From positions 1 to 33,466 of IMG/VR virus record IMGVR_UViG_3300032134_000134: DNA of 33,466 nucleotides. The stretch is one strand, 5' to 3'. The notes under the pieces are model-generated. The model was not told the DNA's origin. It searched no databases and saw only the letters and a program-made list of their open reading frames with translations. Position numbers and translations under genes: made by a program. This DNA comes from a virus. This document shows positions 6,078-24,617 of the stretch, piece by piece (within the stretch, counting starts at the first letter, position 1; each line of letters begins with the position of its first letter).

Positions 6078-6562
6078 CAGCCTCCAGTGATCAGATCGCG
6101 GCCGAGGGATCTCACCCGCTCCACGTCCTCATCGGGGCCGGGCTGGCCTCTCCGGGCCTCGGCCTCCATCAGGGCCAGCTTGCGCTGTAGTGCCGACCGG
6201 TCATTGAGCAGGAGCAGATACCGACCGCGCTCCTCCTCGAGGGTGCTCCTCGATGCCTCCGCCTCCTGACGATAGCCGACCATCCGCTCCGCGATCTCTA
6301 CGCTCTCCCCGGCTCCACCGTCCAGTCCATCGAGGTACAGGCGGATTCTACGCCAGCCGATCAGCACGGCCCCGAAAAATGAGAGAGCGGCCAGGACCTC
6401 ATCGGCCATGCGCTCATAGAACGGAACGCCGTATCCGGGAGGCGGGAGGCACTCGACCAGGATCGGAGCCTGAACAGGAGCCTCCTCGAGGAGGATGAGC
6501 TCCTCGGTGGCCTCCTGTGCATTGGCGGCCAGGGTGAGCAGGAGCAGGGTGATGAGCATCAC
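6077..6562 (-). CDS. Signal-peptide/TM/coiled-coil protein, possible lysis (spanin-like) protein
   Basis: A 161-aa protein. Residues 1-15 (MMLITLLLLTLAANA) form a signal peptide with an ANA-Q cleavage site. Residues about 57-73 (VLAALSFFGAVLIGWRR) are a short membrane segment, and residues 85-140 (EIAERMVGYRQEAEASRS...LEEERGRYLLLLNDR) are a coiled coil. It lies next to the endolysin and overlaps it by ATGA. Membrane anchor plus coiled coil beside an endolysin is what an inner-membrane spanin or holin-associated protein would look like, but no family was recognised. No Rz1-type lipoprotein is nested in it. Confidence 0.55.
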   Translation of the reverse strand: MMLITLLLLTLAANAQEATEELILLEEAPVQAPILVECLPPPGYGVPFYERMADEVLAALSFFGAVLIGWRRIRLYLDGLDGGAGESVEIAERMVGYRQEAEASRSTLEEERGRYLLLLNDRSALQRKLALMEAEARRGQPGPDEDVERVRSLGRDLITGG

Positions 6563-8055
6563 TCACCGCCAGGGCCGGCGATACTCGGCCAGCCCGGGGG
6601 AGCCGTTCGGGATCGGGGGAGATTCGCAGCCTCGGAGACTACCGGGATGTCATCGATCACCGGGCCGGCATCGATCACCATTGGCTCTCTGCGGATCTCG
6701 GTCGGCCGCTCCGACGGCTCCTCGATGATCTCCGGGGCCTCCTCGATCGCGGTGCTCATCAGCTCCGAGAACGCATCGAAGAACGCGGCCATGCCATCGT
6801 GCTCGGCTTTGTGTGCTCGGTCGGAGAGCAGGCCAGCCACCGGAGAGCGTACCGCGCTGATTACCCTGAGTGCTCCCTTGAGGATGGCCATGAAGGCGCC
6901 GCCATCGTACTTCTCGAATGCTGCCCTCACCTCCTCGTTCCTGATGAATTTCCAGCGGGCTCGCTTGTCGAGCTGCATGGCCAGGGAGGACAGCGCCCAG
7001 TCCTGAAAGTCCTCTCGGACCTCCTCGAATGCCTCCTCACTGTCCATCCCGCTGTCCAGGTAGGACTGATACTGACCCACCCAAAAGTCTTTTTTGAGGC
7101 GGAACATCTTGCGGATAGCGCGCTTGCGTTTCTTGCTGAGGTCGAGAGGCATGGAGGGCTCGGGGGGGAGGGTTGCGGAGGGGGGAGGGTGAGCCTCGGG
7201 GGGAGAGGGGAGAGGCTCGGGGGGGATTAGAACTGCTGGGGCTGGCTCCTCGGTGGCCGTCGCTCGGGGAGGGGCCGGCGACTCGGTGAGCCCGGCCCCG
7301 AGTCTAAAAAGAGAATTAGCCCTGTCCAGCCACTCCTCGCGGTCGGCCAGGCCGTTGGTTCCACCGTTGATCGCTCGGGTGAGGCCGAGGAAGTCGCCGA
7401 GCTGGCCATCGGCAGGGGAGAACCGGTTGAGGTTGTTCTGGAGCCAGAACCAGGCCGCGCACTGCCAGCCGATCCAGGGGTTGAGGACGAGCTCGGGCTC
7501 ATCGGCCAGCGGTAGCCCGAGGAATGCGCCGGCCTGCTCGTAGTTAGACCGGTGAGTCAGCTGGATCGGCCCGCGGCCGTAGAAGGGCGCGTAGGGTCTG
7601 ATGTCGCCACCGATCTCCGCACTGGAGCGGAACCGGTTGGATTCATGGGCCAATTGCGCAATCCAGAACGGGAACCGGGCCTCGGTGATGTGGGCTGTGA
7701 CGGTGGCCGCATTGAGCGGGGCCAGCCAGGATGCTCGGAAAGATGGCGCGTATGCCACCATCTCGGAGAGGGTGAGGACCGGGATCTGTGACCGCTCGGC
7801 CTGTATCAGCGCGGAGAGGGTCCTGGCCGCGATGTCTGGATCTCCATCGAGGTTGGCCAGGCCGGCCGCGTGGATCGCTCTGGTCGTCTTTGGGCCCCAG
7901 GCGCCATCGATCGGCCCGGGAGAGTAGCCGAGGCGGGAGAGGTGGGCCTGTACCTGGACGGTGGCCAGGGAGGGCTCGGTGGGCTCGGTGGGCTCGGTGG
8001 GCTCAACCCGAGCTGGCCGGCCTCTGATTCCCCGTCGCTGTCTGGCGTTGCTCAC
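6559..8055 (-). CDS. Endolysin: peptidoglycan-binding domain + GH19 lysozyme + C-terminal extension
   Basis: A 498-aa cell-wall lytic enzyme. After an EPT-repeat linker (18-29), residues 30-88 match PG_binding_1 (HLSRLGYSPGPIDGAWGPKT). Residues about 95-255 match a GH19 chitinase/lysozyme fold: candidate catalytic Glu138 in LAHESNRF, Glu147 in SSAEIGGD, then YGRGPIQLT at 159-167 and TRAINGGTN near 226. Residues 258-305 are a Pro-rich linker. Residues 306-498 are an unidentified, mostly helical C-terminal region (KKRKRAIRKMFRLKKD, then MDSEEAFEEVREDFQDW). GTG start at 8055 overlaps the preceding stop. Typical GH19 endolysins lack this extension. Confidence 0.85.
   Translation of the reverse strand: MSNARQRRGIRGRPARVEPTEPTEPTEPSLATVQVQAHLSRLGYSPGPIDGAWGPKTTRAIHAAGLANLDGDPDIAARTLSALIQAERSQIPVLTLSEMVAYAPSFRASWLAPLNAATVTAHITEARFPFWIAQLAHESNRFRSSAEIGGDIRPYAPFYGRGPIQLTHRSNYEQAGAFLGLPLADEPELVLNPWIGWQCAAWFWLQNNLNRFSPADGQLGDFLGLTRAINGGTNGLADREEWLDRANSLFRLGAGLTESPAPPRATATEEPAPAVLIPPEPLPSPPEAHPPPSATLPPEPSMPLDLSKKRKRAIRKMFRLKKDFWVGQYQSYLDSGMDSEEAFEEVREDFQDWALSSLAMQLDKRARWKFIRNEEVRAAFEKYDGGAFMAILKGALRVISAVRSPVAGLLSDRAHKAEHDGMAAFFDAFSELMSTAIEEAPEIIEEPSERPTEIRREPMVIDAGPVIDDIPVVSEAANLPRSRTAPPGWPSIAGPGGE
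7972..8004 (-). repeat. 9-bp tandem repeat encoding the EPT linker
   Basis: GGGCTCGGT repeats at 7972, 7981 and 7990 with a partial fourth unit to 8004. On the minus strand it encodes EPTEPTEPTEP in the endolysin N-terminus. It is a slippage-prone linker whose length could vary between strains. Confidence 0.85.
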
Positions 8056-20150: not shown

Positions 20151-21080
20151 CTATCGGTCAGAGATGATCTCAACACCGCGGAGATCCTCGGCCTCCACAA
20201 CGGAGGGGAAGATGCTTGCGATGAGTGCGGTCATGAAGTTGGCTTGATCGCGGTTTATCTCGATCACCATGGCGGCATTGCTCATGTAGCGCAGGCTCTC
20301 CGGGATGATGCCAGCGGCCAGCTGGGCATTGGCCAGGGTGTAGGCAAAGCAGCCCGCGCCAAACATCGCGCCCGAGCTGTCAGCTCCACCACCTACCGCG
20401 GTCACAGAGTCGCTCTGCCAAAGTTGGACACCGTTCCAGGTGCCTTTAAATCCCGGGCCTCGGAGGGCCAGCAGATCAGCGGTGGCCGGCTGGAACTGTG
20501 CGGCTCCGGCCTCACTGCGGAGGGAGGACTGGAAGTCGTTGAACTGGGTGGGGTACAGAACGGATGCGAACGGTCCAGGAACAGACTGGCTGTTGAGCTG
20601 GAAGATCGCGTCATACATCGAGGAGACATCGAGATCAACGCCGGTTCCCGGTCCAACGTCGTTGGCCAGTGCAGGGAACAGGGCACACAGGAGATCGGTG
20701 AGGGTGAGGCCAACACCCTGAACCAGCTTTGCAGCCACTGCCTCAAGCTGCACCGGGCCTCCCGAGATGGGGATCAGGTCCGTGATCTGGTAGCGCCGGG
20801 AGTAGCCAGCAGGCGTCAGAGAGAAGCGGAGGGAATCCCAGTCGCTGTTGACGATGGCACTGCCAAGGATCTCTGTATTCCGAGCGGTGTAGGCTCCAGG
20901 AGTAGCGTCCAGTGTGACGTCCATCGTTCCCGAGCCTTGCGGGCTCCAGGGGACAAAGCGCATCAGCGCGGAGAGGTCCGTCGGATCGTAGAGCTGATCC
21001 AAGACCATATCGGAGAGTACAGCAGGAACCAGACCGCCCTTCGGAGAGAGTAGGTCTGATTTTTGGATTTCTTCGGCCAT
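20151..21080 (-). CDS. Major capsid protein
   Basis: A 309-aa protein beginning MAEEIQKSDLLSPKGGLVPA, with an N-terminal arm and a beta/helix pattern consistent with an HK97-fold capsid (for example MRFVPWSPQGSGTMDVTL and the C-terminal VIEINRDQANFMTALIASIF). It lies next to a scaffold-like gene and after portal and terminase. The 5' leader (21081-21201) contains two identical-loop hairpins. The ribosome site (GAG) is weak. It is the expected most abundant phage product. Confidence 0.75.
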   Translation of the reverse strand: MAEEIQKSDLLSPKGGLVPAVLSDMVLDQLYDPTDLSALMRFVPWSPQGSGTMDVTLDATPGAYTARNTEILGSAIVNSDWDSLRFSLTPAGYSRRYQITDLIPISGGPVQLEAVAAKLVQGVGLTLTDLLCALFPALANDVGPGTGVDLDVSSMYDAIFQLNSQSVPGPFASVLYPTQFNDFQSSLRSEAGAAQFQPATADLLALRGPGFKGTWNGVQLWQSDSVTAVGGGADSSGAMFGAGCFAYTLANAQLAAGIIPESLRYMSNAAMVIEINRDQANFMTALIASIFPSVVEAEDLRGVEIISDR

Positions 21081-21085
21081 CGTTT

Positions 21086-21183
21086 ATCTCGGTTTTTTGG
21101 TTGGTTGCCCGTGCCGCTGGACTGCGAGGAGCTGATACCGGACAGCCAACCGAGGGGCTGATACCGGACAGCCCAACCGAGAT
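21086..21183. repeat. Inverted repeat ATCTCGGTT / AACCGAGAT flanking the capsid leader
   Basis: ATCTCGGTT at 21086-21094 is a perfect inverted copy of AACCGAGAT at 21175-21183, with 80 bp between. The interior contains both stem-loop repeats. Their arms could bring the leader ends together in the capsid message. Confidence 0.7.
21128..21181 (-). promoter_or_regulatory. Capsid leader: two tandem stem-loops with identical loops
   Basis: Two copies of GCTGATACCGGACAGCC (21131-21147 and 21157-21173, 26-nt period), each followed by AACCGAG. Read as RNA from the minus strand, copy 2 folds as GGGCTG-(TCCGGTAT)-CAGCCC, a perfect 6-bp stem with an 8-nt loop, and copy 1 has the same loop with a shorter stem. 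The pair lies in the 121-nt gap upstream of the capsid start and downstream of the scaffold stop. A capsid-protein or regulator binding site, or a translation control element, is plausible. Confidence 0.7.
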
Positions 21184-21189
21184 GGCCCG

Positions 21190-21198
21190 ACTATATCA
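21190..21198 (-). promoter_or_regulatory. Extended -10 promoter candidate upstream of capsid
   Basis: Minus-strand TGATATAGT (21190-21198) matches an extended -10 (TG-n-TATAGT). No convincing -35 hexamer lies 17 bp upstream. It would transcribe the tandem-hairpin leader and capsid gene. Confidence 0.35.
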
Positions 21199-21201
21199 GG
21201 A

Positions 21202-21765
21202 TCAGACAATGATACCCTCTTTTTTCAGGCGCTCCAGTCCTGCCTGGATTGCCATCTTGCGCCCCACCTTGGTTCGACGGGCCTGATAGGTTTTCAGGTC
21301 CAGCGGGCTGTCCGGTGGCTGAGGGGGTGAAATGCCAGCGTTGGGATCGCTGGCTGGGCGCCTCTTTGTGGTGGTCGGTATCTCCGGCGTAGCCTGTGCT
21401 GGCGTGAACCAGCGGCCGTAGAGCTGATCATCTTTGAGCTCCTCACAGAACTCGGAGAATGGGGGAGCCTCATCATTCTCACCGAGCTCCGAGAGCGCAT
21501 CGTTGTACTCCCGGCGAATGGCCCGGCGGCCCCTGCTGGAGGAGATTCCGAGGCCGGAGAGGTGGAGGTCCTGATCGTGTCGGGTGCCCTGGGCCTTGAG
21601 CTGGCCCTGTAGGGTTGCTCCGCGCTCCGTGGCTGTCTTGAGCTCAGCAGAGAGCCGAGAGCGATCAGCAGATAGGGCGCGGATCTGGGATCGGAGGTCT
21701 GCACCGTCGCTCGGTGTCGGTGTCGGTGTCGGTGTCGTTGTCGGTGTCGTTGTTTCATCAGACAT
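21202..21765 (-). CDS. Scaffold-like protein, 187 aa
   Basis: Position between portal and capsid is that of the head scaffold. Residues 1-20 are Thr/Pro-rich (TTTPTTTPTPTPTPSDG) and encoded by GGTGTC-type hexanucleotide repeats. Residues 24-62 are a coiled coil (LRSQIRALSADRSRLSAELK). The C-terminal 60 residues are basic and may bind capsid (YQARRTKVGRKMAIQAGLER). A strong AGGAG lies upstream of ATG 21765. No protease motif was seen. Confidence 0.6.
   Translation of the reverse strand: MSDETTTPTTTPTPTPTPSDGADLRSQIRALSADRSRLSAELKTATERGATLQGQLKAQGTRHDQDLHLSGLGISSSRGRRAIRREYNDALSELGENDEAPPFSEFCEELKDDQLYGRWFTPAQATPEIPTTTKRRPASDPNAGISPPQPPDSPLDLKTYQARRTKVGRKMAIQAGLERLKKEGIIV
21711..21757 (-). repeat. 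Hexanucleotide repeat (GGTGTC) encoding the scaffold TP-rich N-terminus
   Basis: GGTGTC and GTTGTC units follow each other between 21711 and 21757. On the minus strand they encode TPTPTPTP and similar residues near the start of the scaffold protein. The array is a slippage-prone site, so its length could differ between related phages. Confidence 0.75.
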
Positions 21766-21776
21766 GGGGGGGGCTC

Positions 21777-23213
21777 CTATTCTTCACTGGGGAGGATGGA
21801 TGCCAGGACACGGCCGAGCTCGGCCTCCTGCTCCTGCTGGCGTACCAGAAAGGCGAGGGCCTCCTGGTCTGTCTCGATGTCAGGGTTGAGTCGCCGGGCC
21901 ATCGTGACTCGGGACACCAGCCCGAGGGCCTGCTCCCCGCTCAAGTTCTCGATGAGTAGCTTTCGTTCCTGCTGGGATAGGCCGAGGATCGCGTACTGGA
22001 TCTGATAGGCCCGCTCATCGACAGGGAGAGCAACGCCTCCATAGCTGTTGGCCAGGCGGGCCGCTGTGGCGAGGAGCTGCTGGTCGCCAGTCCGATTGGA
22101 GGGTTCTGCAGATCGTTGGGCTCTACGCTGGCCATCCCTGGAGACGATGATGGAGATTCCAGACTGCACTCCTGATGCCTGGAGGTCGCCGGGGTTGAGG
22201 CCGGCAAACACGGCCAGGCGCTCGGCATACGATCGGAGCGCCTCCACTCCCTCCATCGGAGCCATTCCAGGCGGGTAGGTGTCGATGCGGCCGGAGCTGT
22301 CCCGGGTGGACTGGAACTGCAGGATGGTTTTCTTGGAGACAGTGATCGTCTCCATGTTCCGACTCCCCTGCAATGTCCGGGTTGTTCCTGCTGGTAGCTG
22401 GAGGTCGATAGCCACCCGCTGTGGATTGGCCAGGTCATTGAACGCATCCCACCATGAGGTCCATCCGACGGCCAGCCGGAGGGTTCCCGCTACGATCTCA
22501 ATGCCCCGGCTCCAGTCGTAGAGCCGGTCCTGGAGGCGTGCATGGTAGAGGACATAGGGGAAGATCGGAGCGCCCGAGTCATCGATATACGGGTAGTCGG
22601 TGCTCCCCGCGTAGAATGCCGTCATGTCCTGACGTTGCCTGTCCTCATCGATCTCCTCGATGCGGAATACTGGATTCAACGGATCGGTGATATCCCATGT
22701 CTCAAACGTCTGGACGGTGATCGTGTTGCCCGAGTCGTCGGGCCGGGTTCTCTCCCGGAGCTCCTCGACCATGACAGCGCGGTCACTGTGGACCTTGGAT
22801 GCCTCGGTCTGGAGGATGTAGCCGGGCGATACGACCCGATAGCCAACCTCCTGAGAGGCAGACTCATTCACCGGCCAGTCCAGGCGTACAAAGCACTCCC
22901 GAATCCCTCGGGTGAACAGATCCCTCTCCTGCATTTTCGGCCACAGGAGGGGAGTGATGATGGATGCCAGATCCTCCTCACCCTCGATGAGCACGGTAGG
23001 AGGCTCATCGTATGAGACGGCCAGCTGCATCAGGGTGAGGAGGAATGTGTTCTCGGAGAGGTCGGGATTGATCTGGAGCTCGGCCGCCACCTCGGGCGCG
23101 TAGTCTCGGAGGATCTCAGCCCGGATATCGATCTCCTGATGGCCTCTCAGCAGGCGCTCTCTCCGGCGCTGCTCCTTGAGTCGGGAGGACTGGTCATCGA
23201 GGGAGTGTGGCAT
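21777..23213 (-). CDS. Portal protein
   Basis: A 478-aa protein between large terminase and scaffold. It has long alpha-helical and wing-like regions and portal-typical segments such as YGGVALPVDERAYQIQYAIL and a helical C-terminus (QEALAFLVRQQEQEAELGRV). Residues 75-110 (VLIEGEEDLASIITPLLWPK) and the Ser/Arg-rich QASGVQSGISIIVSRDG region fit a stem/crown layout. It forms the dodecameric DNA-entry ring. ATG at 23213 is 7 bp downstream of the terminase stop, with GGTGA upstream. Confidence 0.8.
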   Translation of the reverse strand: MPHSLDDQSSRLKEQRRRERLLRGHQEIDIRAEILRDYAPEVAAELQINPDLSENTFLLTLMQLAVSYDEPPTVLIEGEEDLASIITPLLWPKMQERDLFTRGIRECFVRLDWPVNESASQEVGYRVVSPGYILQTEASKVHSDRAVMVEELRERTRPDDSGNTITVQTFETWDITDPLNPVFRIEEIDEDRQRQDMTAFYAGSTDYPYIDDSGAPIFPYVLYHARLQDRLYDWSRGIEIVAGTLRLAVGWTSWWDAFNDLANPQRVAIDLQLPAGTTRTLQGSRNMETITVSKKTILQFQSTRDSSGRIDTYPPGMAPMEGVEALRSYAERLAVFAGLNPGDLQASGVQSGISIIVSRDGQRRAQRSAEPSNRTGDQQLLATAARLANSYGGVALPVDERAYQIQYAILGLSQQERKLLIENLSGEQALGLVSRVTMARRLNPDIETDQEALAFLVRQQEQEAELGRVLASILPSEE

Positions 23214-23219
23214 CGGTGT

Positions 23220-24617
23220 TCACCTTACGAGAGTCATGGAGGCGCCGGATCGGACGACCGGCGATAGCCAATGCTCCCCGATATAGCCCGCGGCGTCGAA
23301 TGGGTGCTTGAGGGAGTCATTCGCTCCCATCCAGTGACGATAGCTGTGGATGAGTCGAGTACAGTCCTGATGCACGTAGATCCGCTTCTCGACACAGGCC
23401 GAGGAGATGATCCGGGCTCGGGCCTTCACCGAGCCGGGCCCCTTGTATGGCGGCTTCATCTCGAATGGAGGCCGAGGCCGGCCGATCTCCCCAGCGATGG
23501 CCCGGTTGATGAGCTGATTGACGGTGGCTGCTATGCCTCTCCGGCCAGAGCTGTTGGAGTCTCCGCGGCCGATTGTGATCTGGTCGAAGTCCACTCCCCA
23601 AGGCTTGAGCACCTCATTGCGGAGTGCCTTGACCTCCTCGGCTTCCGTCATTCTCTCCGATGGGCTCCACTCGGCCAGGTAGTAGACAGCCACATCATCC
23701 CATCCCACCAGATACCAGACCGTGTTCCCGACCACCTCTCCCCAGTCGGCTCCGAGGCCGAGCTCGGAGAACTGAACATCGTTCAGGAACTCATCGTCCA
23801 CAATGTTCCCATCGGTGAACCCGGGAACCCTCCGGCCAATTGTGTAGCCCGTCCATTCAGCGAGAACCCGCTGGCCACGTTCCCAGCTCGGGGTATCCGC
23901 GATCATCTCCTCCACCCTGGCCTCGGAGAGGTGGGGAGCGTTCTCATGGCTGAGGATCGCCTTGAAGATGATCCAGCCCGGAGACTCGGGGCCGTTGCCT
24001 GTGACGGGATCTCCCTCCACCGTGTTCCGCAGCCAGGTGCAGGGCCGGCCAATCGGGGTGAGGGTTCCCCAGATGGGCGCGGACTTGACTCCCCCCCGCT
24101 TGATGAACTCTCCCCAGTGCGATCGCTTGGGCGGCTCGTCGAACCACTGCCAGGCGATGGTACCCGAGGACAGGGCCGTTACAGACTGGTCGCTCCCCTT
24201 GCCGATCATCAGGCTACCGTTGGCCAGGCCGACCGCTCGGATTCCCCGGTAGTAGTAGCCGCGGGCCTCATCGTAGGTGCAGCCCTCGGCCAGCACTCCA
24301 GGCGGTTCGATCTCCCGGAGCTTCTGACTGATCTTCGGCCATCCGTTCTTCAGGTCACTGGCCAGTATCCATCCCTCATTGGGGACATCGAGGGGAGGCC
24401 GGTATGGGTGCGTGCCTGTGGCGTGCCACCATGCCTCAGCGGCTCCAGCGCGTGTCTTCCCCATCTGGTTGCCAGCCAACAGGAGGCGCTTCCGGCTCTG
24501 GGATTGGTGGAATCGGGACTGTGGAGGGCTCTGGCCTCCCCATCCGGGCCAGTCCTCGATGTATCTGCGGAGGGGATTGACGCTGGCCTGCTGGCCTCCG
24601 GTGATCAGTGCGACCAA
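23220..24617 (-). CDS. terL: Terminase large subunit (ATPase/nuclease)
   Basis: A 465-aa packaging motor protein. Walker A is AGNQMGKT at residues 48-55, Walker B with the catalytic Glu is WQWFDEPP at 156-163. The nuclease domain shows Asp291 in LGADWGEVVG, Asp353 in GRGDSNSSG and Asp441 in KHPFDAAGYIGEH, the usual RNase H-like acidic triad layout. Start TTG at 24617 (MVALITGG) was used because no ATG or GTG occurs earlier and it is preceded by GGGGA; a TTG start is somewhat unusual here. It works with the small subunit and portal to pump DNA. Confidence 0.9.
   Translation of the reverse strand: MVALITGGQQASVNPLRRYIEDWPGWGGQSPPQSRFHQSQSRKRLLLAGNQMGKTRAGAAEAWWHATGTHPYRPPLDVPNEGWILASDLKNGWPKISQKLREIEPPGVLAEGCTYDEARGYYYRGIRAVGLANGSLMIGKGSDQSVTALSSGTIAWQWFDEPPKRSHWGEFIKRGGVKSAPIWGTLTPIGRPCTWLRNTVEGDPVTGNGPESPGWIIFKAILSHENAPHLSEARVEEMIADTPSWERGQRVLAEWTGYTIGRRVPGFTDGNIVDDEFLNDVQFSELGLGADWGEVVGNTVWYLVGWDDVAVYYLAEWSPSERMTEAEEVKALRNEVLKPWGVDFDQITIGRGDSNSSGRRGIAATVNQLINRAIAGEIGRPRPPFEMKPPYKGPGSVKARARIISSACVEKRIYVHQDCTRLIHSYRHWMGANDSLKHPFDAAGYIGEHWLSPVVRSGASMTLVR

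Follow-up and report, generated by a model that had tools for sequence, protein, structure and literature searches.

The capsid locus and its relatives

The window analyzed here, which is the whole stretch of a 33,466-base virus record, carries its capsid-region genes and the capsid leader on the minus strand (Table 1). The product of the capsid gene is 29% identical to the annotated major capsid protein of Phage DSL-LC06, and its AlphaFold model, obtained with an alignment of 42 sequences, had a pLDDT of 79.7 (a model with 8 sequences gave 31.8; the 42-sequence model is the one used). In a Foldseek search of this model against the PDB, the 50 matches listed were all tailed-virus capsid, head or vertex entries or encapsulin entries. 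The portal and scaffold names were assigned because of the gene order and because the same order is annotated in DSL-LC06, in which the gene at the position matching ORF 21202-21765 is annotated as scaffold. This ORF is kept together with the capsid gene in the relatives; it had no match in PHROGs and, in Pfam, only a sub-cutoff match to DUF4164. Elsewhere in the window, positions 6559-8055 (minus strand) hold an endolysin-like ORF with GH19 chitinase-class and peptidoglycan-binding domains.

Table 1. Genes and leader features of the capsid region in the window, with the basis of each assignment.
Feature	Positions	Strand	Basis or remark
Terminase	23220-24617	-	PHROGs and Pfam
Portal-like gene	21777-23213	-	Gene order, as also annotated in DSL-LC06
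Upstream ORF, probable scaffold protein	21202-21765	-	By position, between portal and capsid
Capsid leader	21081-21201	-	Between the stop of ORF 21202-21765 and the capsid ATG
Extended -10-like element TGATATAGT	21190-21198	-	Conserved TATAGT in 12 of the 21 close leaders
P1 5' strand AUCUCGGUU	21175-21183	-	Inverted repeat arm; contains S1a of unit 1 (CGG, 21177-21179)
Pseudoknot unit 1, UCGG-UU-GGGCUG-U-CCGG-UAU-CAGCCC	21155-21180	-	Comparative
Pseudoknot unit 2, copy of unit 1, UCGG-UU-GGCUG-U-CCGG-UAU-CAGCU	21130-21153	-	Direct repeat and comparative
Pseudoknot unit 3 (B type), UCGC-A-GUCC-A-GCGG-CAC-GGGC	21107-21127	-	Comparative; B unit also in the other 20 close leaders
P1 3' strand AACCGAGAU	21086-21094	-	Inverted repeat arm; holds SD-like GAG (21088-21090), 7 nt before ATG
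Major capsid protein gene (HK97-type fold)	20151-21080	-	DSL-LC06 identity and AlphaFold model

Relatives were collected with the terminase (14 loci), with a portal alignment (29 loci) and with capsid alignments (46 and 69 loci, many of them on shared contigs), and all these loci lie on viral contigs. Merging identical leaders left 61 distinct capsid leaders, the window included, from one family of uncultivated phages; in the alignment of 42 sequences, capsid identity to the window is between 26 and 77%. One leader whose match begins at residue 79 (L080) was dropped, and L189 and L190 were excluded as partial copies of contigs already covered. The leaders were assigned by eye to a close group and to groups C and D, and the leader counts given below are not phylogenetically independent. 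When genome contigs were searched with the portal and capsid alignments, no host or prophage relative was found. In DSL-LC06, which is the nearest named phage, the 350 nt that surround and precede the capsid start lack an NCGRYA site.

Promoter-like sequences lie at the upstream end of these leaders. TATAGT is found 19 nt before the first strand of the structure described below in the window and in 11 of the 20 other close leaders (12/21), and the other 9 of the 21 have ACAAT variants. A TTGACA-type promoter with a loose -10 lies just upstream in all 13 leaders of group C and all 15 of group D. Because a simple consensus scan of the window gave no two-box promoter, we infer the transcription start. 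In most of L049, L053-L057 and L170, an inverted repeat, GATTGT-N12/13-ACAATC, lies about -110 to -130 from the ATG; its right arm contains the -10-like ACAAT, a near copy is present in L051 and L052, and the repeat resembles a repressor operator overlapping the capsid promoter.

Tandem pseudoknot units in the capsid leader

The original prediction for this locus, made from the letters of the window, described twin stem-loops with the same loop directly upstream of the capsid gene, bracketed by a 9-bp inverted repeat, and suggested that they could serve as an operator for coat or scaffold protein or protect the mRNA. Both repeats are real. Two 23-nt copies in direct orientation, at 21125-21147 and 21151-21173 in the leader, are 96% identical at a spacing of 26 nt, and the two hairpins have the same transcript loop, UCCGGUAU. 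Its single inverted repeat has two 9-nt arms that are 100% complementary and 80 nt apart. The 33,466-base record has exactly two copies of CTGTCCGGTATCAG, and the capsid leader holds them both. The 113-nt leader folds at -46.8 kcal/mol (z -3.29), which beats 200 of 200 dinucleotide shuffles; the nested minimum free energy fold does not show the hairpin of unit 3. Three of the 4 leaders tested in this way folded better than their shuffles, and the sequence of L041 was no better (z -0.15). What had been overlooked is a third unit, the pairing of each loop with the CGG or CGC just 5' of its own stem, and the ribosome-binding GAG that the 3' arm of the inverted repeat contains.

In the close relatives there is a single hairpin of A type, mostly with the loop UCCGRYAU, and one of B type, mostly with the loop AGCGRYAC. 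On 20 close leaders, RNAalifold paired the UCGG located 5' of hairpin A with the CCGR in the hairpin-A loop; on the plain alignment it gave 8 pairs, one of them with a double change. The corresponding sequences of the B unit are UCGC, 5' of the hairpin, and GCGR, in its loop. The unit thus reads CGN, 1-3 nt, a 4-6 bp stem, 1 nt, N'CG, R-Y-A plus 1-2 nt, and the stem's other strand, with the upstream CGN (S1a) pairing with the N'CG (S1b) in the loop of the next 4-6 bp hairpin (S2). Read as an H-type pseudoknot, it has natural lengths: 3-4 bp for S1, 1-3 nt for L1, 4-6 bp for S2, 1 nt for L2, and 4-5 nt for L3 (counted after a 3-bp S1). In the window, the leader consists of three such units in tandem, A, A again and B. 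Each of the other 20 close leaders, in contrast, has exactly two units and no second A copy, and the twin of the window is, as judged from the alignment with its relatives and their single A copy, a local 26-nt tandem duplication of the first unit. This duplication could also be an assembly error. Of the twin hairpins originally put forward as the element, the repeats therefore stand, the plain stem-loops give way to units that fit pseudoknots, and the twin is a feature of this genome only. A kissing pair between the twin loops, whose CCGG is self-complementary, was set aside, since relatives have one A copy and its loop pairs with its own upstream CGG.

We wrote the unit as a search grammar after reading the leaders, and its weight rests on the controls, on a loop A that the grammar does not ask for, and on covariation counts. 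The loose form was found in 54 of the 61 leaders. In 20 dinucleotide-shuffled sets it turned up in 1.4 of 61 on average (range 0-5), and among other 150-nt segments of the same loci it was present in 100 of 1587. Allowing a wobble S1 pair gave 55 leaders with 78 units, 49 of them distinct. Because the leaders are related, they were also clustered: the strict form is present in 52 of the 61 leaders and in 17 of 20 clusters at 70% identity, and absent from the remaining 9 leaders. When the test was anchored on NCGRYA, S1 and S2 were both found at 73 of 95 leader sites; outside the leaders, on the same strand of these loci, 8 of 1459 sites have both. Across both strands of the window, only three NCGRYA sites have both helices (21167, 21141 and 21117), and all three are in the leader. 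The third position of L3 is A in 48 of the 49 distinct units.

Covariation was examined separately for the A-type and D-type units. Stems broken without compensation in relatives had been named in advance as evidence against the element; in the nine distinct A-type units compared, S2 is paired in 45 of 45 cells, and double changes occur at 4 of its 5 pairs. In 13 distinct D-type units, the third S1 pair is C-G in 6, U-A in 3, G-C in 2 and U-G in 2, and all 91 cells of S1 and S2 are paired. Sliding the partner by 1-3 columns lowers the pairing to 20-50%, and the covariation score was reached by none of 500 shuffles and by none of the slides. The C and G of S1 are invariant in the counted set, so that two of the three S1 pairs are uninformative on pairing and covariation is confined to the third. 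In S2, the 49 distinct units contain 27 G-T pairs (wobble) that pair only on coding-strand RNA, which indicates that the coding strand acts as RNA; read on the reverse strand, 12 of the 61 leaders satisfy the grammar. Every close, C and D leader that has a unit carries it downstream of the promoter-like sequence and ahead of the capsid ATG. The comparison thus supports S1 and S2, the conservation of loop A, reading on the sense strand and this location, and the leader very probably consists of tandem H-type pseudoknots. The broader proposal of an RNA control element in the capsid leader is likewise supported by the comparative structure.

Several leaders depart from this pattern. L179 has a separate tandem array, two units of quite different sequence from -91 to about -45 relative to the capsid ATG. 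The leaders of L171, L173, L182 and L184 share TGCGATAGGCT and have no pseudoknot fit; a different fold is possible for them. L106 (identical in L120), which has no capsid-family gene, fits a unit and was rejected as a chance match, because it lies inside an ORF of the other strand.

Masking of the ribosome-binding site

In 19 of the 21 close leaders, S1a can alternatively take part in a helix of 8-13 bp, P1, with the region just before the ATG; P1 is missing in L051 and L052. In 17 of the 21, at most 5 of 100 shuffles of the pre-ATG region do as well. P1 changes on both sides between subgroups, from AUCUCGG/CCGAGAU to UCCUUCGG/CCGAAGGA. In the subgroup of the window, the alternative partner of the S1a CGG is the CCG next to the ribosome-binding GAG(A) or AAGGA. 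The ribosome-binding sequence of the close group is weak (GAG), and at the position of the window GAG the relatives have GAGAG or AAGGA.

In group C it is S1b that pairs over the ribosome-binding region, through a helix of 9-14 bp that passes the 5/100 cut in 5 of 12 leaders (L141, L144, L164, L168 and L186; L143, with a longer L1 and no unit, was left out of this count). The remaining leaders of the group have no passing contiguous helix over the ribosome-binding region, and in group D a mask passes in 1 of 15 leaders only. Some group D leaders have an enclosing helix without the SD, seen by eye and uncounted. Masking is thus patchy over the groups, which makes the pseudoknot the general feature and strand masking a feature of some lineages only. 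On comparison of the leaders, the mask is built from opposite pseudoknot strands in two lineages, S1a in the close group and S1b in part of group C. In the 10 leaders examined, P1 adds -7.5 to -16.6 kcal/mol, compared with about -3 kcal/mol for S1, and unbound RNA at equilibrium should therefore be masked. In L064 and L066 the unit abuts the capsid ATG (S1a at -25), with no room for a separate ribosome-binding sequence.

Proposed function and comparison with known systems

Capsid protein is needed in large, balanced amounts, and RNA control of the capsid genes of dsDNA tailed phages is little described. From its place, the leader is likely to have a role in capsid translation. We propose that it is a cis-acting translation control element in which tandem H-type pseudoknots form a gated switch, a reading to which we give a probability of about one half. 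The mechanism, which we offer tentatively, would start with the pseudoknots forming first as the RNA emerges. RNA left alone would then drift to P1, and translation would fall; a factor that recognizes the pseudoknots (a phage structural protein, a host protein or a metabolite) would hold S1a and keep the ribosome-binding site open, and tandem units would make the response of the switch steeper. The lower 4-5 bp of P1 could coexist with the pseudoknot, and binding might lock the site instead of freeing it. More speculatively, an uncultivated and widespread tailed-phage lineage might meter capsid synthesis by a ligand-gated switch of 1-3 pseudoknots with one common architecture. Different sublineages would then have made use of pseudoknot strands from opposite sides, each on its own, to cover the ribosome-binding site, and the switch would sense a specific factor, perhaps the free capsid protein or an intermediate of assembly. 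If true, the pseudoknot array would be a riboswitch-like sensor of virion assembly.

The gated switch is slightly favored over autogenous repression, which we regard as a possible though less probable explanation. In this alternative, excess capsid (or scaffold) protein would bind the pseudoknots and stop capsid translation, with P1 merely an enclosing helix, as the SD-free enclosing helices of group D would suggest. Repeated units suit a multivalent coat, and in the window the element is found only at the capsid gene. A pattern scan for A followed by B returned 27 stretches, 14 of them on capsid-family contigs that the set already included; among the 13 that were inspected, 2 with capsid-family genes and 11 without, the structure lies outside a coding ORF only in the 2 with capsid-family genes. 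A second pattern scan, for two copies of GTCCGGTATC, gave 20 loci, none of which had the capsid, the portal or the upstream ORF by tblastn. The operator of T4 gene 32, with a pseudoknot 67 nt upstream of the start as described in PMC3014915, is a precedent for repression of this kind. Against this alternative, HK97-fold coat proteins are not known to act as mRNA repressors.

It is unlikely that the leader is simply a 5' stabilizer and translation enhancer, in which compact folds at the 5' end would protect the capsid mRNA from decay with no ligand. The T7 gene 10 leader is a precedent for such an element; the first S1a begins 19 nt downstream of the first nucleotide of the -10-like element in the 12 members with TATAGT, and the better-than-shuffled folds of 3 of the 4 tested leaders would suit it. 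However, a stabilizer has no need for an invariant loop A, an RYA loop, or the pairing of CGG with the SD region. A DNA-level element (a recombination, replication or repressor site) is already disfavored and very improbable: inverted repeats can be read on the other strand too, as the reverse-strand fits illustrate, but the S2 wobble pairs and the location between promoter-like sequence and start codon speak against it.

In the literature searched (search listings) and in Rfam 15, we found no description of a capsid-leader pseudoknot unit. None of the 4227 models of Rfam 15 matched the window at gathering, and at E<=5 the matches in the leader and in seven relatives were to lncRNA and miRNA models, all of them below gathering and taken as chance. 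The nearest kinds are the gene 32 operator and STAXI. In gene 32 of T4, T2 and RB69, as here by comparative evidence, the phage mRNA has a leader pseudoknot ahead of the ribosome-binding site (PMC3014915). The gene 32 operator precedes a single-strand DNA-binding protein gene, whereas a capsid gene lies downstream here, and the T4 gene 32 class does not fit because of this gene context. Moreover, the units described here are in tandem and have an NCGRYA loop, a pseudoknot strand also pairs with the SD in one subgroup, and no gp32-type nucleation stretch was seen. A 2010 review describes the T4 gene 32 pseudoknot as perhaps the only viral example in translational autoregulation (PMC3014915); if our reading is true, this family would be a second lineage, with a unit of about 24 nt and natural variants that have one, two and three copies.

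STAXI elements, as presented in PMC2864571, share the tandem arrangement of two or three pseudoknots, which here are three in the window and two in the other 20 close leaders and in L179. They are described there near genes of DNA-handling proteins and often with UUCG tetraloops. The leader lies at a capsid gene, and the STAXI covariance model gave no match at gathering in the window and none at E<=5 in the leader and 7 relatives; because of the model and the context, STAXI does not fit. The SAM/SAH riboswitch is likewise a small H-type pseudoknot in the account of PMC7367207, whereas the units here are in tandem and at a phage capsid gene. The known riboswitch classes in Rfam 15, SAM/SAH included, gave no match. 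The coat operators of ssRNA phages (MS2 type) are capsid-linked simple hairpins near the start codon with an unpaired loop. In the leaders analyzed here, in contrast to these plain hairpins, the loop pairs with the upstream CGN with covariation, in the mRNA of a dsDNA tailed phage.
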